NCBI RefSeq assembly: GCF_014696135.1 | Contig: NZ_JACJPP010000022.1 | Coordinates: 62,001 to 126,000 of the forward strand | Direction of reading: 5' to 3' | Source: Nodosilinea sp. FACHB-141 | Lineage (GTDB): Bacteria; Cyanobacteriota; Cyanobacteriia; Phormidesmidales; Phormidesmidaceae | DNA: 64,000 bases | In this document: positions 21,814 through 45,199 of the stretch, in pieces | How the letters are laid out: every line of letters begins with the position of its first letter | How positions within the stretch are numbered: the first letter of the stretch is position 1 | Translations under genes and position numbers: made by a program | The notes under the pieces: model-generated | Database searches by the model: none | The model's input: only the letters and a program-made list of their open reading frames with translations | What the model was told of the DNA's origin: nothing

Positions 21814-23256
21814 ATGGCTCCTTTGGCACCGTCGCGATCGCAACCCGCCACCGCATCCACCTCAGCGCTGTGGGCAGGGGCGATCGCTCAGCCCGCTAAC
21901 GAATTTGCCGCTACCACGCTATCCGTCCTGGAGGGGCAGTTGCCCGTTGGTCTGCGGGGCACTCTCTACCGCAACGGTCCGGCTCGCCTGGAGCGCGGCG
22001 GCACCCGAGTCGGCCACTGGTTCGACGGCGATGGAGCGGTGCTGCGGGTGAATTTTGATGGCGAGCGCGCCGTGGCCAACTACCGCTACGTGCGCTCTGC
22101 CGGGTTTGTGGAGGAAGAAGAGACTGAGCAGTGTCTCTATCGGGGCTATGGCAGCCTACCGCCCGTTTCCATCTGGCAGCGGTGGCAGACCCAAATGAAG
22201 AATGCGGCCAATACTTCGGTGCTGGCCCTGCCCGATCGCCTCTTGACCTTATGGGAAGGCGGCCTGCCCCACCGCCTCGATCTAGAGACCCTAGAGACCG
22301 TTGGCTTAGATAACCTAACAGGACTCCAGCCTGGCGATACCTTCACCGCCCACCCCAAGCGCCACCCTCGCACTGGCAAAATCTTTAGCTTTGGTACGAT
22401 TCCGGGTGGCAATGCCACCCTCAAGCTCTACCGTCTCAGCGCCACTGGGGTCGTTGAGAAAACCGGCACGATTCCCCTGGCGGGGATTCCGCTGATTCAC
22501 GACTTTGTGCTGGCCGATCGCTACTTTGTGTTTTGCGTGTCGCCTGTGCGCCTTAACCCGCTGCCTGCTTTGTTTGCTCTATCTAGTTTCAGCGATGCCT
22601 TACAGTGGCAGCCTCAGCAGGGCACCCAGATTATTGTGGTGGATGCCGACAGTTTAGAGGCGATCGCCCTCAACCCCGTAGACCCCTGGTACCAGTGGCA
22701 CTTTGGCCACAGCTACCTCGATTTCGACGGCTCGATTGTGTTTGACGTGGTGCGCTACCCCGACTTCACCACCAATCAGCAGCTCAAAGAAGTGGCCTCG
22801 GGCCAGGTCACCACGACCGCTGATGCCCAACTCTGGCAGTACCGCATCGACCCCAAAACCGGCAGGATTCTCGATCAGCAGTGTTTGATCGATCGCCACT
22901 GCGAGTTTCCGGTCGCGTTTGGCCACGACGAGACGGCCACCACCTATCTGAATGTGCATCGTACAGTGCCTACTCCAGTGGGGGATCTATTTGGGGCGAT
23001 CGCCCGCTTTGATCCTAAAACTGGCCTCACCGTTGCCGATGCCGGTGAGGGCCGCTATCCCTCGGAACCGATCGCCGTTGAAAACCCGGCGAACCCCCAG
23101 CAGCCCTGGGTGCTCACCGTGGTCTACGACGGCACCCAGCACCGCAGCGAACTGTGGATATATGAAGGGAATGAGCTGGAGAAGGGGCCGATCTGTCGGC
23201 TAGGGCTGCCGGAAGTAGTGCCCCACAGTTTTCACGGCACTTGGATAAGTGAGTAA
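21814..23256 (+). CDS. Carotenoid cleavage oxygenase (RPE65/apocarotenoid oxygenase family)
   Basis: A 480-residue iron enzyme that cleaves a double bond of carotenoids or apocarotenoids, in many cyanobacteria forming retinal. The seven-bladed propeller family signs are LRGTLYRNGP at 47-56 and HWFDGDG at 68-74. Likely iron-binding histidines are H180 (TAHPKRHP), H229 (LIHDF), H296 or H299 (WHFGHSY) and H474 (HSFHGTW). Length and order agree with Synechocystis Diox1/ACO. No signal peptide is visible; these enzymes associate with membranes through a surface patch. The gene stands alone behind the anti-sigma gene. Its likely product, retinal, would be the chromophore of the rhodopsin encoded at 44492-45199. 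Substrate preference is not decided by sequence. Confidence 0.92.
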   Translation: MAPLAPSRSQPATASTSALWAGAIAQPANEFAATTLSVLEGQLPVGLRGTLYRNGPARLERGGTRVGHWFDGDGAVLRVNFDGERAVANYRYVRSAGFVEEEETEQCLYRGYGSLPPVSIWQRWQTQMKNAANTSVLALPDRLLTLWEGGLPHRLDLETLETVGLDNLTGLQPGDTFTAHPKRHPRTGKIFSFGTIPGGNATLKLYRLSATGVVEKTGTIPLAGIPLIHDFVLADRYFVFCVSPVRLNPLPALFALSSFSDALQWQPQQGTQIIVVDADSLEAIALNPVDPWYQWHFGHSYLDFDGSIVFDVVRYPDFTTNQQLKEVASGQVTTTADAQLWQYRIDPKTGRILDQQCLIDRHCEFPVAFGHDETATTYLNVHRTVPTPVGDLFGAIARFDPKTGLTVADAGEGRYPSEPIAVENPANPQQPWVLTVVYDGTQHRSELWIYEGNELEKGPICRLGLPEVVPHSFHGTWISE

Positions 23257-23343: not shown

Positions 23344-25200
23344 TTGCCCCCTTTCGCTGTGCCAGGCTCCCCTGACTTCTCTCAACGACTCCAGCTCAGT
23401 CAGCGGCTTTCGTCGTTGCCGGGTTCACAGCTCGACCAGGTAATTTTTGCTCTCAATCCGCCGAAGGGTAATATTCCGCCAGCGTCAGCGCCTCCTTCAG
23501 ACCGGGTGATGGCGCTGCTGACCTGGGCTGAAAGTGAGATTGGCTGTGGGCTAGAAACACTGCAACAGGTGCTCAATTCCGTACTGGCGCGGCCTGAGGA
23601 TGCGACATCTCCCCCATCGGAGGGGGCTCGGGTGTTTATTAGCTATCGGGCTCAGGTTCCCGATCAGGCTCTGGCCCAAACCCTGTATCAAGACTTGCAG
23701 ACGGCTGGGCATCAGCCCTTTTTAGCGGGGTCTAGTTTGCAACTGGGGGATCTCTGGGCGCAGCGGATTTTGCAAGAGCTGGAGCGGAGTGACTACTTTG
23801 TGCTGCTGCTTTCGCCCCAGTCGGTCACCAGTGAAATGGTGATGGATGAAGTCAAACATGCCAAAGAGCTGCAAGAAAGCCGGGCAGAACAGCGGCCGAT
23901 CATTCTGCCGATTCGGGTGCAGTTTCCGCTAGAGTCGCCCCTGACCTACAACCTGCGGGGCTACCTGAACCAGATACAGCAGCGCCAGTGGTACTCGCCC
24001 GCAGATACCCCAGCTCTAGTGGCAGAAGTGCTACAGCTGATTGCTTCGGGCCAAGCACCCCCAGCGGTAGAACTCCCGGAAGCCCAACCCCTGTTTGCCG
24101 ACACCCCCGACGACCCGCCCCTGCCCGTAGCAGAACCAGAGCTAAAGCGCGAACCGGGCGGCGCGGTGCCGCTGAAATCGGGCCTGTATGTGGAGCGCTA
24201 CAGCACCGAGACCGGCAAAGCCAACATCACCATCGAAGCCGACTGTTTTGAAGAAATCACCCAGCCGGGGGCGTTGATTCGCATCAAGGCACCCCGGCAG
24301 ATGGGCAAGACTTCGCTGATGGCGCGCATTTTGCACCATGCCGAAAGCCAGGGCTACCAGACCATTGCGGTGAGTATGCAGCGGGCCGACAGCACCATGT
24401 TTGGCGACCTCGATCAGCTGCTGCGCTGGCTGTGCTCGCGGGTGGGCAGACGGCTCAAGCGGTTGGATGAGCTGGCCGATTATTGGGACCCCGCTGTGGG
24501 CGTAAAAGACCGCTGCAACGACTACTTCTTTGAGTGCCTGCTAGAAGAGATCGACGAACCGATTGTGCTGGCCCTGGATGAAGTGGATCTGGTGTTTCCC
24601 CACCGAGTGGTGGCCGACGACTTTTTTGGGTTGCTGCGATCGTGGTATGAGGCCGCCCGCTACGGCGACAGGGGCAGCGAACTGTGGGAAAAACTGCGGC
24701 TGATTGTGGTGCACTCGACCGAGGCCTATGTGCCGCTAGAAATTAACCAGTCGCCCTTTAACGTGGGCAAAAACGTGGAGCTGCCCGAGTTTACCCAAGC
24801 CCAGGTGCAAGATTTGGCCCACCGCTACAACCTGCCCTTTGGCGAAGCTGAGGTAGACCAGATTATGGCTTTGGTAGGGGGACACCCTTACCTGCTGCGC
24901 AAGGGGTTTTATCACCTGCGACGGCAAGATTTGTCGATCGCAGCCCTCTTAGAAACTGGCCCCACCGAAGCGGGTATCTACAGCGACCACCTACGGCGGC
25001 ACCTGCTAAACCTGAAACGCTACCCCGAACTGGCCACCGCCTGTCGCGATGTGGTGCGCCGCAAAACCCCGGTCGATTTGGATGCAGATGTGGCCTTTAA
25101 GCTAGAGAGCATGGGGCTGATTCGGTTGCAGCGCAACCAGGCAACCCCAAGAAATAGCCTGTACCAGCAGTATTTTCTTGAGCATTTGAAGGGAATGTAG
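23344..25200 (+). CDS. TIR domain and AAA-like ATPase protein
   Basis: A 618-residue protein with three parts. Residues 11-82 are a small helical domain (FSQRLQLSQRLSSLPGSQLD, later WAESEIGCGLETL) resembling the effector-associated adaptor domains of cyanobacterial conflict proteins. Residues 95-235 are a TIR domain (VFISYRAQVPDQ, LLLSPQSVTSEMVMDEV) with a conserved glutamate in the last motif that is catalytic in NAD-cleaving TIRs. Residues 278-618 are an AAA-like (AAA_35) domain: Walker A APRQMGKTS at 316-324 and Walker B IVLALDEVDL with D412-E413. The start TTG at 23344 is uncertain. A second AAA-like gene follows after 54 bases in the same direction, very likely in one operon. I infer a STAND-like switch in which nucleotide binding controls the TIR effector. 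Confidence 0.85.
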   Translation: MPPFAVPGSPDFSQRLQLSQRLSSLPGSQLDQVIFALNPPKGNIPPASAPPSDRVMALLTWAESEIGCGLETLQQVLNSVLARPEDATSPPSEGARVFISYRAQVPDQALAQTLYQDLQTAGHQPFLAGSSLQLGDLWAQRILQELERSDYFVLLLSPQSVTSEMVMDEVKHAKELQESRAEQRPIILPIRVQFPLESPLTYNLRGYLNQIQQRQWYSPADTPALVAEVLQLIASGQAPPAVELPEAQPLFADTPDDPPLPVAEPELKREPGGAVPLKSGLYVERYSTETGKANITIEADCFEEITQPGALIRIKAPRQMGKTSLMARILHHAESQGYQTIAVSMQRADSTMFGDLDQLLRWLCSRVGRRLKRLDELADYWDPAVGVKDRCNDYFFECLLEEIDEPIVLALDEVDLVFPHRVVADDFFGLLRSWYEAARYGDRGSELWEKLRLIVVHSTEAYVPLEINQSPFNVGKNVELPEFTQAQVQDLAHRYNLPFGEAEVDQIMALVGGHPYLLRKGFYHLRRQDLSIAALLETGPTEAGIYSDHLRRHLLNLKRYPELATACRDVVRRKTPVDLDADVAFKLESMGLIRLQRNQATPRNSLYQQYFLEHLKGM

Positions 25201-25254: not shown

Positions 25255-28200
25255 ATGGCTGCACCCAACACCTACAAATACCAGGTCGGCGGCAGCCTTG
25301 AGAAAGATGCCCCTACCTATGTCGAACGCCAGGCCGATCGCGAGTTTGTGACGGCGCTGAAGCAGGGAGAGTTTTGCTATGTGTTTAACTCTCGGCAAAT
25401 GGGCAAATCGAGCCTGCGGGTGCACACCATGCAGACCCTGCAAAGCGAGGGCATTGCCTGCGGGGTCATCGACATTACTTCTATTGGCAGTCAAGACATT
25501 ACCCAGGAGCAGTGGTATTGGGGCATTGCCCAGCGCCTGGCCCGCAGCTTTGGCCTGCGCCAAGCCAAAGCCTGGTGGAACGACCACAGCGACCTGTTTC
25601 CGGTGCAGCGGCTGGGGGAATTTATCGAAACGGTGCTGCTGCCCCAGGTGAGTGCCCCGATCGTGGTTTTTATCGATGAAATCGACAGCATTCTGCGAAT
25701 TGACTTCAAAGACGACTTCTTTGCCCTAATTCGCGCCTGCTTTAACCAGCGGGCTGAGAACGCCGACTATCGCCGCCTCACCTTTGCCCTGCTGGGGGTC
25801 ACCACGCCTCCAGACCTGATTCAAGACAAAACTCGTACCCCTTTTAACATTGGCCAGGCCATAGACCTGAAGGGCTTTCAGCTTGATGAGGTTGGGCCGC
25901 TGACCACAGGGCTAGAGGCCCTGGCGGCAGACCCTACCGCCATTATGGCGGCTATTTTAGTCTGGACTGGTGGACAACCCCTACTCACCCAAAAGCTCTG
26001 TCGCCTGGTGGCCGAAGCTAATGCACCCATTGCCCTAGGGCAGGAAGCCGGTAAGATCGCCAGCCTGGTGCACAGCCGTATCCTGCACAATTGGGAAGCC
26101 CAGGATGAACCCGAGCACCTGCGCACCATTCGCGACCGGCTGCTGCGGAATGAGCGCAGCACTGGACGCCTGTTGGGGCTTTACCAGCAAATTTTGCGGG
26201 AGGGCAGTATCGCCGCCACGGGCGACCCGAACTATATCGAGCTGCGGCTGTCGGGCCTGGTGGTAGAAGTCCAGGGGCGGCTGTGGGTGTATAACCGCAT
26301 TTACCAGTCGGTGTTTGATCTTGGGTGGGTGCAGGAGCGGTTGGCGGGGCTGCGGCCCTATGGGGAAGCCATTGCTGCCTGGATTGCCTCGGAGGGTAGG
26401 GATGAGTCGCGGTTGCTGGGGGGGCAGGCGCTAGAGGATGCCCAGGCCTGGGCGATGGGCAAAAACCTGGGAGAGGTAGACTATCGGTTTTTGACGGAGA
26501 GCGAGAAGAAAGATAAGCGGGCAATACAGGAAGCAAACCGGATTTTGGAGGCGGCACAGCAGGAAGCCGATCTCGAACTACAGAAAGCCAGAACGACGAA
26601 TCGTCGGGCTAGGCGTTTGCTCGTTGGTGCGGCCATCTTGGCTTGTGCCACAGGAGGAGCTGCCATCTTGGCTACTAAAGAAGCTCGTATGGCCAGGGCC
26701 GATGCCACAGCGAGCGAGATTGATGCTGCACAGCAGCAACGTACGGCTAACTTTTCTGCCATAAAAGCTAGGTTCAATGTGGGGGTGGCTGATATTCGTG
26801 AGGGAGTGGCCAATCGGCAGGTTGCGATTGCACAAAAAGAGCGGCAACGGCTCAACGCCGAACGGCAGGATGCCATAGAGCAACAAGAAGCGGCAGAAGC
26901 AGGGCGACAGCAGGCTGTAGCCGACCAGCAAATTGCTCTGCAAGGAGCCGAAGCCGCCAGACAAGCCTCTGCTACCGCCCAAGAAGCCGCCGACAACGCC
27001 ATACAACTGCAACAAGAAGCCGAACTGGCCCAGGACATAGCCCGCCAAGGCGGTAGCCTGGAACGTCGGGGGGCAGTGCTGCAGAGATACCAGCCAGAAC
27101 GCTTTTTTGAAATTGAGACGCTGCTGGAAGCGCTGAACCTGGGGCAAGAGTTGAGGCAGCTAGTGCAAACAAGTTCTAGCAATAAGGCTCAACTCACGCT
27201 CAGTGAATACCCTGCTACCAGCCCATTCTTAGCTTTGCGGCAGACTGTCAACCAGGTAGTGCAGATCAACCAACTGCAGGGAAGAAACCCTAACTTCAGT
27301 GCTGATGGCCAGCGCATCGCCACTTATTCAGAATGGGACAATACTAGTTGGGTTTATTCCAAAGATGGTCAAGAACTGTTCCAGCTAAAGGGGAGTTACC
27401 CCAGCTTCAGCACCGATGGCGAGCGCATCGCCACTTATTCATCTTCATCCAACGACAATACTAGTTGGGTTTATTCCAAAGACGGCCAAGAACTCAACCA
27501 ACTACAGGGGCGTTTCCCCAGCTTTAGTACTGATAGCCAGCACATCACCACCTTTTCATCTAACGAAAATACCAGTTGGGTCTATTCCAAAGACGGCCAA
27601 GAACTGTTCCAATTGCAGGGGCACTCCCCCAGCTTCAGTGCTGATGGCCAACGCATCGCCACATATTCATACTTTGACAATATCAGTTGGCTCTATTCTC
27701 AAGACGGCCAAGAACTGTTCCAACGGCAAGGGAGTTTCTCCAACTTCAGTGCTGATGGCCAGCGCATCGCCACTTATTCAGAAGGGGACAATGCCAGTTG
27801 GATTTATTCTAAAGATGGCCAAGAACTGTTTCAGCTACAGGGGGGTTATCCCAGCTTCAGTGCCGATGGCGACCGCATCGCCACTTATTCATTTAATGAC
27901 AATACTAGTTGGGTTTATTCTGGAGACGGCGAAGAGCTGTTCCAACTGCAGGGGCATTCCCCCAGCTTCAGTGCTGATGGCGAGCGCATCGCCACTTATT
28001 CATCCAACGACAATGCTAGTTGGGTTTATTCTCGAGACGGTGAAGAGCTATTCCAACCGCAGGGGATTTTCCCCAGCTTCAGTACCGATGGCCAGCGTAT
28101 CCTCACCTTTTCAGAAAGCGCCAATGCTAGTTGGCTCTATTCTCGAGACGGTCAAGAACTCAACCAACTGCAAGGAAATTACCCCAGCTTCAGTGACGAT

Positions 28201-29595
28201 GGCCAGCGCATCGTCACCTATTCATATATCGACAATATCATTTGGGTTTATTCCAAAGATGGCCAAGAACTGTTCCAACTGCAGGGGCGTTTCCCTATCT
28301 TCAGTGCCGACGGCCAGCGCATTGCCAATGATTCAGGCAACAACAATGCCAGTTCGGTTGCTTCCCGAGATTGGCAGGAACTGTTCCAACTGCAGGGACA
28401 TTCCCCCAGCTTCAGTGCCGATGGTCAGCGTATCACCACCTATTTACCCAGCGCCAATACCAGTTGGGTTTATTCCAGAGATGGCCAGGAACTTTCCCAG
28501 CTCCAGGGGCGTTCCCCTAGCTTCAGTGCTGATAGCCAGCGCATTGCTACCTATTCAGAAAGGGACGATGCCAGTTGGGTCTATTCCCGAGACGGTCAAG
28601 AATTATTCCAACTGCAAGGGCGTTTACCTAGCTTCAGTACCGACGGCCAGCGCATTGCCACCTCTTCAGAAAGGGACGATGCCAGTTGGGTCTATTCCCG
28701 AGACGGTCAAGAACTCAACCAGCTAGAAGGAAACTACCCCAGCTTCAGTGCCGATAGCCAGCGCATTGCCACTAATTCACTTACCTTTGATGTTAGTTGG
28801 ATCTATTCCCGAGACGGCCAAGAACTGTTTCAACTGCAGGGAAGTTACCCCACCTTCAGTGCCGATGGCCAACGCGTTGCCACCTCTTTTTACGACGAAA
28901 ATGCTAGTTGGATCTATTCCCGAGACGGCCAAGAACTGTTTCAACTGCAGGGAACTTACCCCAGCTTCAGCGCCGATGGCCAGCATATCCTTACCTATTC
29001 ATCCATCGAAAATGCCAGCTGGGTCTATTCCCGAGACGGCCAAGAACTGTTTCAACTGCAGGGAAGTTATCCCAGTTTCAGTGCCGATGGTCAACGCATC
29101 CTCACTTATTCATTCATCGAAAATGCCAGCTGGGTCTATTCCCGAGACGGTCAAGAACTCAACCAACTGCAGGGGAGTTTCCCCAGCTTCAGTGCCGATG
29201 GTCAACGCATCCTCACCTCTTCATCCGTCGACGATGCCAGCTGGGTCTATTTCCGAGACGGACGAGAACTCAACCAACTGCAAGGGAGTTCCCCTAGCTT
29301 CAGTACTGATGGACAACGCATCCTCACCTCTTCACAGCAAGAGCGCCTTACTCGCATTTACAATCGCGATGGCAACCTCATAGCTGAATACCCCGGCTAC
29401 GGTGCCAGTTTCATCCTTAACCGACAATATTTAATTCTCACCTCCGCAAGAGGCAGTTGGTTAGAGGCTTGGCCCATCGACAACGGCCTTGACGATTTGC
29501 TTGCCCAAGGTTGTCACTGGCTGCGCCATTACTTCGTTAGCTACCCCAATCAGAAACCTGAAATTTGCACTGTCCTATGGAACGAGTCTCAGTAG
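25255..29595 (+). CDS. AAA-like ATPase with membrane segment and 19 propeller-like repeats
   Basis: A 1446-residue protein. Residues 1-330 form an AAA-like (AAA_35) ATPase related to that of the preceding gene: Walker [11 protein letters not shown] at 44-53, Walker [13 protein letters not shown] with D141-E142, then a helical lid. Residues 370-445 carry a charged helix. A membrane segment follows at about 449-475 ([20 protein letters not shown]). Residues 475-620 are an alanine- and glutamine-rich coiled coil. From residue 673 there are 19 tandem 37-residue repeats (consensus [20 protein letters not shown], then [15 protein letters not shown]) and a divergent closing unit. They look like WD40 blades that lost about five residues. 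ATG 25255 follows the TIR gene by 54 bases. The repeats would be a large ligand-sensing surface; the ligand is unknown. Confidence 0.87.
27271..29385 (+). repeat. Nineteen tandem 111-bp repeats encoding shortened WD40-like blades
   Basis: Units begin with codon CAA at 27271 and recur every 111 bases; the second copy is six bases longer. Copies near the 3' end are the most alike (for example units starting near 28830, 28941 and 29052 share long identical runs), pointing to recent expansion or gene conversion there. Each codes for G[12 protein letters not shown], then a variable loop and [10 protein letters not shown]. Because the period is a multiple of three, long empty frames appear in the other plus-strand reading frames. 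Confidence 0.93.
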
Positions 29596-43007: not shown

Positions 43008-43450
43008 TACGAATACCTCTTGAACTGCATGAAAAGGAATTCGCTCCTTCTTGGTTGGTAGAAAAGCGACGGGGGCTGAAATTTATGCATCATTCTAGGT
43101 CTGGCAAATATGTTCAAAGCTGATCCAGATCACACTCAAGAGTGATAATACGGGTTTGTGGAATCATAAAAATCACACTCAGGCCCTATGTATTTGGCTA
43201 AACTTTATCTAAGTCTGACAAAAACCTCGTCTGTTATTGAGAAACTCTGAGTTTTTAAGAGGTTTGCAGCAGTCAGTTGGTTTTTATGACGGTTTTCTAA
43301 GGCAAGATTATTGCTGGAAATTTTCGCTCAAGTAATGAGTTTTTATGGTTGATTAAATTGTTTTAAGCAGGAACATTGTGTTTATGTTCTCTCTCCCTAG
43401 GGTGCCAACTCGACTCGGTTAACTATGCATTGAATGAATGGAGGGAAATC
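43008..43450. other. Divergent AT-rich intergenic region
   Basis: About 440 bases, clearly more AT-rich than the surroundings, separating the minus-strand HTH-like gene from the plus-strand HD gene. The decamer ATCACACTCA occurs twice (near 43127 and 43170), and the first copy is part of a dyad ATCACACTC-AA-GAGTGAT. These could be binding sites for a regulator of one or both genes. No gene was found. Confidence 0.4.
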
Positions 43451-44371
43451 ATGTCTCAAAATCTTTTTAAGTCTGTAGAAAGCCGGCTTTGGGAGAGCTA
43501 CAGCACCATGTTTGGCTGTACTGCGCTGAGCTATTGGCAATCTTTTACGACGCTGGCCAACGAGATTATCTCCTACCTGCAAGGCACTGATGCTCCCTAT
43601 CACAACGCTGACCACACTCTGCAAGTGATGTTGGTGGGGCAGACGATTTTAGCAGGGCGCTATCTGCAACACCACGACCTAACTCCCCAAGACTGGCTCA
43701 ACGCCATGGTCGCTCTGCTCTGCCATGACATTGGCTATGTAAAAGGTATTTGCCCTGGCGACAACAAGACGATCAATCACTTTGTCACCGGACAGGGAGA
43801 CGGCTGGGTAGCGTTATCATCTCGCTCAACGGATGCTAGTTTGACCCCTTACCACGTGAGCCGGAGCCAGAGGTTTGTCCGCCATCGGCTGGCAGAACAG
43901 TCCCTAGCCGATGTTGATGTTGTCGTAGATTGCATCGAACACACCCGGTTTCCTGTGCCGCCCGAGTCTAAATATCAAACCACCAACGATTTGCCGGGGC
44001 TATGCCGAGCTGCTGACCTGCTGGGGCAGCTAAGCGATTCCGATTACCTCAAGAAGCTCTCATCTCTATTTTGCGAATTTGCAGAAACAGGAACGAATAC
44101 CGCGCTGGGATATAAGTCTGTGGCCGATTTGCGGGCTAACTATCCCCACTTCTATTGGTATGTGGTGTATCCATTCATTCAAGCAGCGCTTCGGTACTTA
44201 GCCGTAACGGCCCAAGGGCGCGAGGTGATTGCTCGCCTCTTTACCAACGTGTATCTGGTGGAGCTAGAGCAGTCGTTGTCTGAGACGGGTTCAGCAGGCT
44301 TAAAACAGCAGGCCGCTAGCCAAAAAGTTTTGCCCTTTTGCCTTACCGACAACCTCGGCTATGGCTTGTAG
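43451..44371 (+). CDS. HD-domain phosphodiesterase-like protein, copy 1
   Basis: A 306-residue metal-dependent phosphohydrolase-like protein. The motif Y50-H-N-A-D-H55 followed by TLQVMLVGQ recalls the YHNxxHxxxV signature of class I cyclic-nucleotide phosphodiesterases, and the HD pair is H92-D93 in LLCHDIGYVKG. Further conserved pieces are DASLTPYHVSRSQRFV and EHTRFPVPPES, then LRANYPHFYWYVVYPFI. ATG 43451 has GGAGGGAAA upstream and is preferred to a start at 43376. A paralogue with the same motifs lies at 52506-53354. It precedes the rhodopsin gene by 120 bases in the same direction, so they may be expressed together. Whether it acts on cyclic nucleotides is inference. Confidence 0.82.
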   Translation: MSQNLFKSVESRLWESYSTMFGCTALSYWQSFTTLANEIISYLQGTDAPYHNADHTLQVMLVGQTILAGRYLQHHDLTPQDWLNAMVALLCHDIGYVKGICPGDNKTINHFVTGQGDGWVALSSRSTDASLTPYHVSRSQRFVRHRLAEQSLADVDVVVDCIEHTRFPVPPESKYQTTNDLPGLCRAADLLGQLSDSDYLKKLSSLFCEFAETGTNTALGYKSVADLRANYPHFYWYVVYPFIQAALRYLAVTAQGREVIARLFTNVYLVELEQSLSETGSAGLKQQAASQKVLPFCLTDNLGYGL

Positions 44372-44491: not shown

Positions 44492-45199
44492 ATGGCTCAA
44501 ACATGGCTTTGGATTGGAGTAGGTTCTATGGCGCTGGGCGCTGCATTCTTTGGCTTTGGTGCCCACAGCGCTAAGACCGAAGGCTGGAGAAAGCTGTATA
44601 CCCTCAGCTTCTTTATCTGCTTGATTGCTAGTGCTTTGTATCTATCTATGGCGCTGGGCCAAGGTCAGCTCATGCTCAACGATCGCCCCACGGTTTGGGT
44701 GCGCTACATTACCTGGTCACTGTCTACGCCGCTGCTGCTGCTGATCTTTGCCTTTTTAGGCCACACTAGCCTGACGCTGACCGGCAGTTTGCTAGGAACC
44801 AACGCCTTTATGATTGCGACCGGGCTGGCGGGAGCCCTCTCCCCTGACCCTATCAACTACATTTGGTATGTCGTCAGCTGTGCAGCATATTTGGCTGCCG
44901 TCTACCTCCTGTTGGTGCCCTTTAGGCACGAGGCCGAGCGCAATCGCCCCCGTACCAAGAAGGTTTTTGGCCAGCTAGTTGCTGTTCATTTAATTCTCTG
45001 GACGGCTTACCCAATCGTTTGGATTTTAGCTCCCACTGGTATTGACGCCATTGGCCAGGATTTTGAAACTATGTTCTACACAATCTTAGATATCTCGTCT
45101 AAGGTTGGCTTCGGCCTGCTCTCGCTCAACACCTATAGCAAAATTGAGCATATTGGCGCTGCTACAAAAGATTTAGAACCCACGGCTTCGCTGCGATAA
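44492..45199 (+). CDS. Microbial rhodopsin, halorhodopsin-like (TSI motif)
   Basis: A 235-residue seven-helix retinal protein for the plasma membrane. The retinal lysine is K204 in DISSKVGFGLL, with counter-ion D200. Helix F has LILWTAYPIVWIL, nearly that of bacteriorhodopsin. Helix C reads RYITWSLSTPLLLLIF: R71 is kept, and the positions equal to bacteriorhodopsin Asp85, Thr89 and Asp96 are T74, S78 and I85. Loss of both proton-path aspartates with Thr-Ser in place is the pattern of light-driven chloride pumps (archaeal TSA, cyanobacterial TSD), so an inward anion pump is the best guess; a sensory role is possible. ATG 44492 lies nine bases after a HIP1 site. The neighbours are an HD protein upstream and small/DUF2267 proteins downstream. 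Confidence 0.93.
   Translation: MAQTWLWIGVGSMALGAAFFGFGAHSAKTEGWRKLYTLSFFICLIASALYLSMALGQGQLMLNDRPTVWVRYITWSLSTPLLLLIFAFLGHTSLTLTGSLLGTNAFMIATGLAGALSPDPINYIWYVVSCAAYLAAVYLLLVPFRHEAERNRPRTKKVFGQLVAVHLILWTAYPIVWILAPTGIDAIGQDFETMFYTILDISSKVGFGLLSLNTYSKIEHIGAATKDLEPTASLR

Follow-up and report, generated by a model that had tools for sequence, protein, structure and literature searches.

Cyanobacterial halorhodopsins (CyHR) usually carry an aspartate at the third position of their helix C motif. Can a member of this group do without it and still drive chloride into the cell? The question is raised by a rhodopsin gene of Nodosilinea sp. FACHB-141, located in a stretch of 64,000 nucleotides that was analysed as a whole (the window). 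At the positions of Asp85, Thr89 and Asp96 of bacteriorhodopsin (BR), its product has Thr, Ser and Ile (TSI). Two characterised inward anion pumps serve as references (PMC9617919, PMC9525653): MrHR from Mastigocladopsis repens (PDB 6k6i, 6xl3) and SyHR from Synechocystis sp. PCC 7509 (PDB 7zou), which pumps both Cl- and SO4 2-. Both have a TSD motif. The role of the third residue, Asp85 in CyHR numbering, is stated to be unclear, prevention of chloride backflow being one proposal (PMC9617919).

The Gene and Its Helix C Motif

The rhodopsin gene and the residues discussed below are located as follows in the window.

44492-45199, + strand: rhodopsin gene of the CyHR clade, intact open reading frame from ATG to TAA, 235 aa
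44606..44608, + strand: S39, codon AGC, in the column of N39 (hydrogen-bond partner of D85 in SyHR) and of BR T46
44702..44725, + strand: helix C anion-binding residues R71, T74, W75 and S78, ungapped against MrHR and SyHR, at BR R82/D85/W86/T89
44711-44713, + strand: T74, first residue of TS in the motif, from the ungapped alignment
44723-44725, + strand: S78, second residue of TS in the motif, from the ungapped alignment
44744-44746, + strand: I85, codon ATC, in the column of BR D96 and of D85 in MrHR and SyHR
44987..44989, + strand: H166, the CyHR-specific histidine of helix F, equivalent to SyHR H167 in the cytoplasmic ion-release cavity (role: PMC9617919, PMC11995866)
45035..45037, + strand: T182, equivalent to SyHR T183 and to MrHR E182, the main sulfate-pumping switch (PMC9525653)
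45089..45103, + strand: D200 (second counterion) to K204 (retinal Schiff-base lysine), from the alignment

A profile search matches the protein to Pfam PF01036 (Bac_rhodopsin) with 176 bits. In the PDB, the top solved-structure match is MrHR (E about 1e-93, 143/221 residues identical, 65%, ungapped), and SyHR is matched with E=8e-91 (138/216 identical, 64%). A SyHR-like sequence served as bait; later comparisons with SyHR used the sequence returned by the PDB. The BR sequence is verified at the numbered key residues only. Against MrHR, SyHR, BR and a fragment of the archaeal NpHR, the alignment is gap-free and bears out the original prediction, which had assigned T74, S78 and I85 to BR positions 85, 89 and 96. 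Because the alignment is ungapped and identity to MrHR reaches 65%, the third motif position cannot slide onto another residue, and misalignment of position 96 was thus ruled out. As read from the gene and its alignment, the TSI motif is real.

All the anion-pump residues that were checked are kept (R71, T74, S78, H166, D200 and K204), K204 being aligned with BR K216, the retinal lysine of helix G. Each residue checked in the retinal pocket is that of either MrHR or SyHR. With MrHR the protein shares the common anion site, H166 and the retinal pocket, and it differs by D85 to I85, N39 to S39 and E182 to T182. It resembles SyHR at T183/T182, E193/E192 and H167/H166 (SyHR/window numbering), and differs from it by the same replacements at 85 and 39 and by a less basic cytoplasmic end of helix F. 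If the topology of MrHR is applied, no acidic residue falls within the cytoplasmic half of the membrane core thus predicted.

Placement in the Cyanobacterial Clade

TS-type rhodopsins were gathered from the order, from several draws in the class and from one draw in the phylum. The alignment has 33 rows, two of them identical: 12 TSD, 11 TSL, 6 TSI, 2 TSV and 2 TST. In the tree, the window rhodopsin falls in the CyHR clade together with MrHR and with TSD and TSV rows, apart from XeR, CyR-II and BR, and MrHR is its closest characterised relative. The helix F histidine (H166, or H167 in SyHR), which among anion pumps is specific to the CyHR clade (PMC9617919), is present in 33/33 rows. By its sequence, the protein is a member of this clade; the usual CyHR Asp at the BR 96 position, which is not a defining feature, is replaced in it by I85.

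The six TSI rows form a single clade (support 100/99), whose sister is a TSV protein of the same family (99/97). The node that unites TSI, TSV and MrHR rows has a support of 80/89. One TSV row (L017) has a long branch and is weakly attached. A tree in which all non-Asp rows are forced into one clade was not rejected (p-AU 0.176); either one loss of the acid within CyHR or several may lie behind the non-Asp states.

The known cyanobacterial members had been described in the original prediction as TSD proteins. This is too narrow a view. TSV, TSL and TSI variations within the CyHR clade are mentioned in PMC9617919, TSD, TSV and TSL are listed in PMC5877348, and the TSL, TST and TSV rows make up 11, 2 and 2 of the 33 in our genome sample. 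I85 is one among several CyHR states (D, L, V, T, I). Since TSV, TSL and TSI variation is already in print, the gene is mostly ordinary, one more CyHR gene carrying a variation that, like the clade, already has a name. The clade, with 31 genes, is treated in PMC11528372, according to which the CyHRs of two lineage C-II MAGs seem to be horizontally acquired.

The isoleucine had also been seen as closer to the archaeal state. This holds only for the shared absence of an acid: in NpHR, the PDB-verified fragment has T, S and A in the three motif columns, and the Thr-Ser anion site and an expected photocycle without M intermediate are further points of likeness. It does not hold for the placement, which is beside MrHR and a TSV protein in the cyanobacterial clade. 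The motif is TSI and not the archaeal TSA, and 65% identity to MrHR compares with only 30/81 identical among the aligned residues of the NpHR fragment (helices C to E). NpHR belongs to a clade separate from CyHR (PMC9617919) and has Thr218 where CyHR have the helix F histidine (PMC12538430). An archaeal origin was ruled out by these identities and by the placement with MrHR, in a tree that held no archaeal halorhodopsin.

A decayed halorhodopsin gene was seen in a Chroococcidiopsidaceae MAG (L009:3745-4426). Its helix C is interrupted by an in-frame stop, and there is a frameshift or else an assembly error.

Conservation Among Relatives

The gene is carried by 6 of the 28 genomes searched in the genus-level group. 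Homologues 87-99% identical to the window rhodopsin occur in the five further genomes, and the named carriers are Nodosilinea plus one Leptolyngbya bin. I85 and S39 are found together in all six species-level carrier genomes, independently sequenced strains among them, with ATC as codon 85 in five of them and ATT in the sixth. Across the six genomes, pairwise dN/dS values range from 0.03 to 0.07, which corresponds to strong purifying selection. Fixation of I85 under such selection means that the residue reflects neither error nor decay; a sequencing error and a pseudogene were both ruled out on these grounds.

Two relatives have the same arrangement of genes around the rhodopsin gene and a third has part of it; in Nodosilinea sp. 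LEGE 06152 the arrangement is not conserved. Directly upstream and on the same strand, the gene at 43376-44371 (+) encodes a protein whose HD/PDEase-like motif scores below the cut-off of Pfam (E=0.002); it also adjoins the rhodopsin gene in two relatives.

The D85-N39 Pair

In SyHR, D85 is hydrogen-bonded to N39 (PMC9617919). The 27 TS rows that do not belong to the TSI clade have Asn39 without exception, even where residue 85 is Leu, Val or Thr, and Ser39 is found in 6/6 TSI rows. Hence, Asn39 is lost in the TSI group alone. No report of an N39S replacement accompanying TSI was found in the open-access literature, which covers part of the field.

The TSI proteins are thus natural variants in which Asp85 and Asn39 are both replaced under strong purifying selection, and they offer a direct test of the backflow proposal. 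Normal pumping by a TSI protein would show D85 to be dispensable, and a failure to do so would make the loss of D85 a candidate explanation for the lack of transport by a TSV protein from Cyanothece sp. PCC 7425, described below.

The TSL and TST halorhodopsins (L049-L061) have Asp at position 104, vs. Asn in TSD, TSI and TSV proteins, and Thr or Gln at position 82, near the retinal. Asp104 is possibly a relocated cytoplasmic acid. The TSI and TSV groups, with Asn at 104, are thus the poorest in acids near the cytoplasmic exit.

A Probable Inward Chloride Pump

The residues and the clade support the original prediction in that the protein is a probable anion pump, belongs to the cyanobacterial TS clade and lacks the third acidic residue. 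We consider it likely that the window rhodopsin is a light-driven inward anion (chloride) pump, its retinal binding, pumping, ion and direction being deduced from what the sequence, alignment, clade, residue conservation and selection show. In SyHR, T74 and S78 form the anion site by the Schiff base and H167 lines the release cavity (PMC9617919). In the window rhodopsin, retinal would be attached to K204 as a protonated Schiff base. A chloride ion held at T74 and S78, with water, near the Schiff base would act as counterion in place of the missing Asp85 carboxylate of BR, and R71 and D200 would complete the anion site. Upon photoisomerisation, the anion would pass the Schiff base into the cytoplasmic half and leave through the H166 cavity. 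As the Schiff base would stay protonated, a proton donor at position 96 would be unneeded.

Indeed, anion pumps of the halorhodopsin kind have no M state (PMC9617919), so that loss of the donor should matter little, and replacing D85 has no strong effect on the photocycle of MrHR (Harris 2018, as cited in PMC9617919). The changed reprotonation that had been envisaged for I85 is therefore unlikely to matter. Archaeal pumps have Ala at the third motif position (NpHR fragment), and the Myxosarcina halorhodopsin, with a TTV motif and no position-96 acid, pumps Cl- (PMC7979833), which means that a bacterial halorhodopsin can work without this acid. I85 and S39 would abolish the D85-N39 hydrogen bond and leave an acid-free cytoplasmic core half as in archaeal halorhodopsins. 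Because D85 is proposed to stop backflow, the two replacements may alter the speed or the tightness of the cytoplasmic gate; the ion and the direction would be expected to stay the same.

The main caveat comes from the Cyanothece sp. PCC 7425 rhodopsin (WP_012628826.1), also a cyanobacterial TS protein without position-96 acid, compared here by description only. It has V instead of I and an absorption maximum of 566 nm, and its expression in E. coli gave no substantial transport (PMC7979833). It is the only TSV cyanobacterial protein assayed, and it would count against pumping, its silence suggesting that cyanobacterial proteins devoid of D85 may be poor pumps. Loss of D85 could weaken pumping since D85 is proposed to prevent chloride backflow (PMC9617919). 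The window protein might then have the CyHR fold, bind retinal and an anion, and pump poorly, either sensing light or transporting very slowly. Replacement of both partners of the D85-N39 bond also fits such a protein. However, the remaining transport residues, H166 and R71 included, are conserved, no transducer-like gene adjoins the rhodopsin among the neighbours examined, the Myxosarcina TTV protein does pump, and the negative result with the Cyanothece protein may stem from expression in E. coli, according to its authors (PMC7979833). We therefore regard poor pumping as unlikely. The silent TSV protein also hints at a wider reading, to which we give a similarly low probability: with the D85-N39 lock fully lost, the Nodosilinea TSI proteins as a group would not be ordinary chloride pumps, and would act as light sensors, leaky anion conductors or pumps with a different gate. 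No measurement of any TSI protein was found in the open-access literature, of which coverage was partial. An outward proton pump is far less probable still. The scaffold allows this activity, as a single T74D replacement converts MrHR into such a pump (PMC9617919), but position 74 is Thr and not Asp in the window rhodopsin, and there is no donor at 85.

Ion Choice and Sulfate

I85 had further been proposed to change the choice of ion. This is not where the determinants lie in the characterised pumps: ion choice was mapped to E182 in MrHR, whose glutamate has to be removed before sulfate can be pumped (PMC9525653), and to R71 and H167 in SyHR (PMC11995866). In addition to chloride, a broad-range pump could also carry sulfate, as SyHR does. 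This would extend the inward chloride pump rather than replace it, and we hold it to be possible but rather doubtful. The Thr at position 182 is shared with SyHR and makes some sulfate transport possible, and R71 and E192, part of the sulfate site, are present (PMC9525653, PMC11995866). However, Thr or Ser at 182 is the usual state of the clade, so that Thr182 alone says little; N63 and P118 are MrHR-like; and the cytoplasmic end of helix F (KKVFGQL) is devoid of SyHR R161/K162, which lie in a sulfate-boosting stretch (PMC9525653). Taken together, T182, R71, E192 and H166 on one side, and N63, P118 and the scarcity of basic residues where helix F starts on the other, make sulfate transport possible, without allowing a confident prediction.

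Retinal Supply and Other Genes

The genome encodes three carotenoid-cleavage oxygenases. One of them (L063, contig C7) is very close to the Synechocystis apocarotenoid-15,15'-oxygenase, with 627 bits to 2biw. Given this strong homologue, retinal can probably be made in the host. Another oxygenase gene lies in the window:

21814..23256, + strand: divergent carotenoid-cleavage oxygenase, distant relative of apocarotenoid-15,15'-oxygenase (228 bits), about 21 kb upstream of the rhodopsin gene

It is a possible retinal supplier and not the strongest candidate, L063 being the closer homologue. This gene adjoins sigma-factor-like and anti-sigma-like genes.

A second rhodopsin is encoded on another contig of the same genome (L001, contig C27, 15651-16307). 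It has a DTS motif and a proline at the position of BR D212, which we take to be a mark of xenorhodopsins and of Anabaena sensory rhodopsin. From this proline, its place in the tree and knowledge of the family, it is classified as a rhodopsin of the xenorhodopsin/Anabaena-sensory-rhodopsin type.

Two further genes of the window encode large proteins. At 25255-29595 (+), a 1446-aa protein has an ATPase-like N-terminus, and its C-terminal part is a long array in which near-identical repeats follow one another. At 23344-25200 (+), a 618-aa protein combines a TIR-like region (VFISYRAQ...) with an ATPase-like region and is possibly involved in signalling or defence.
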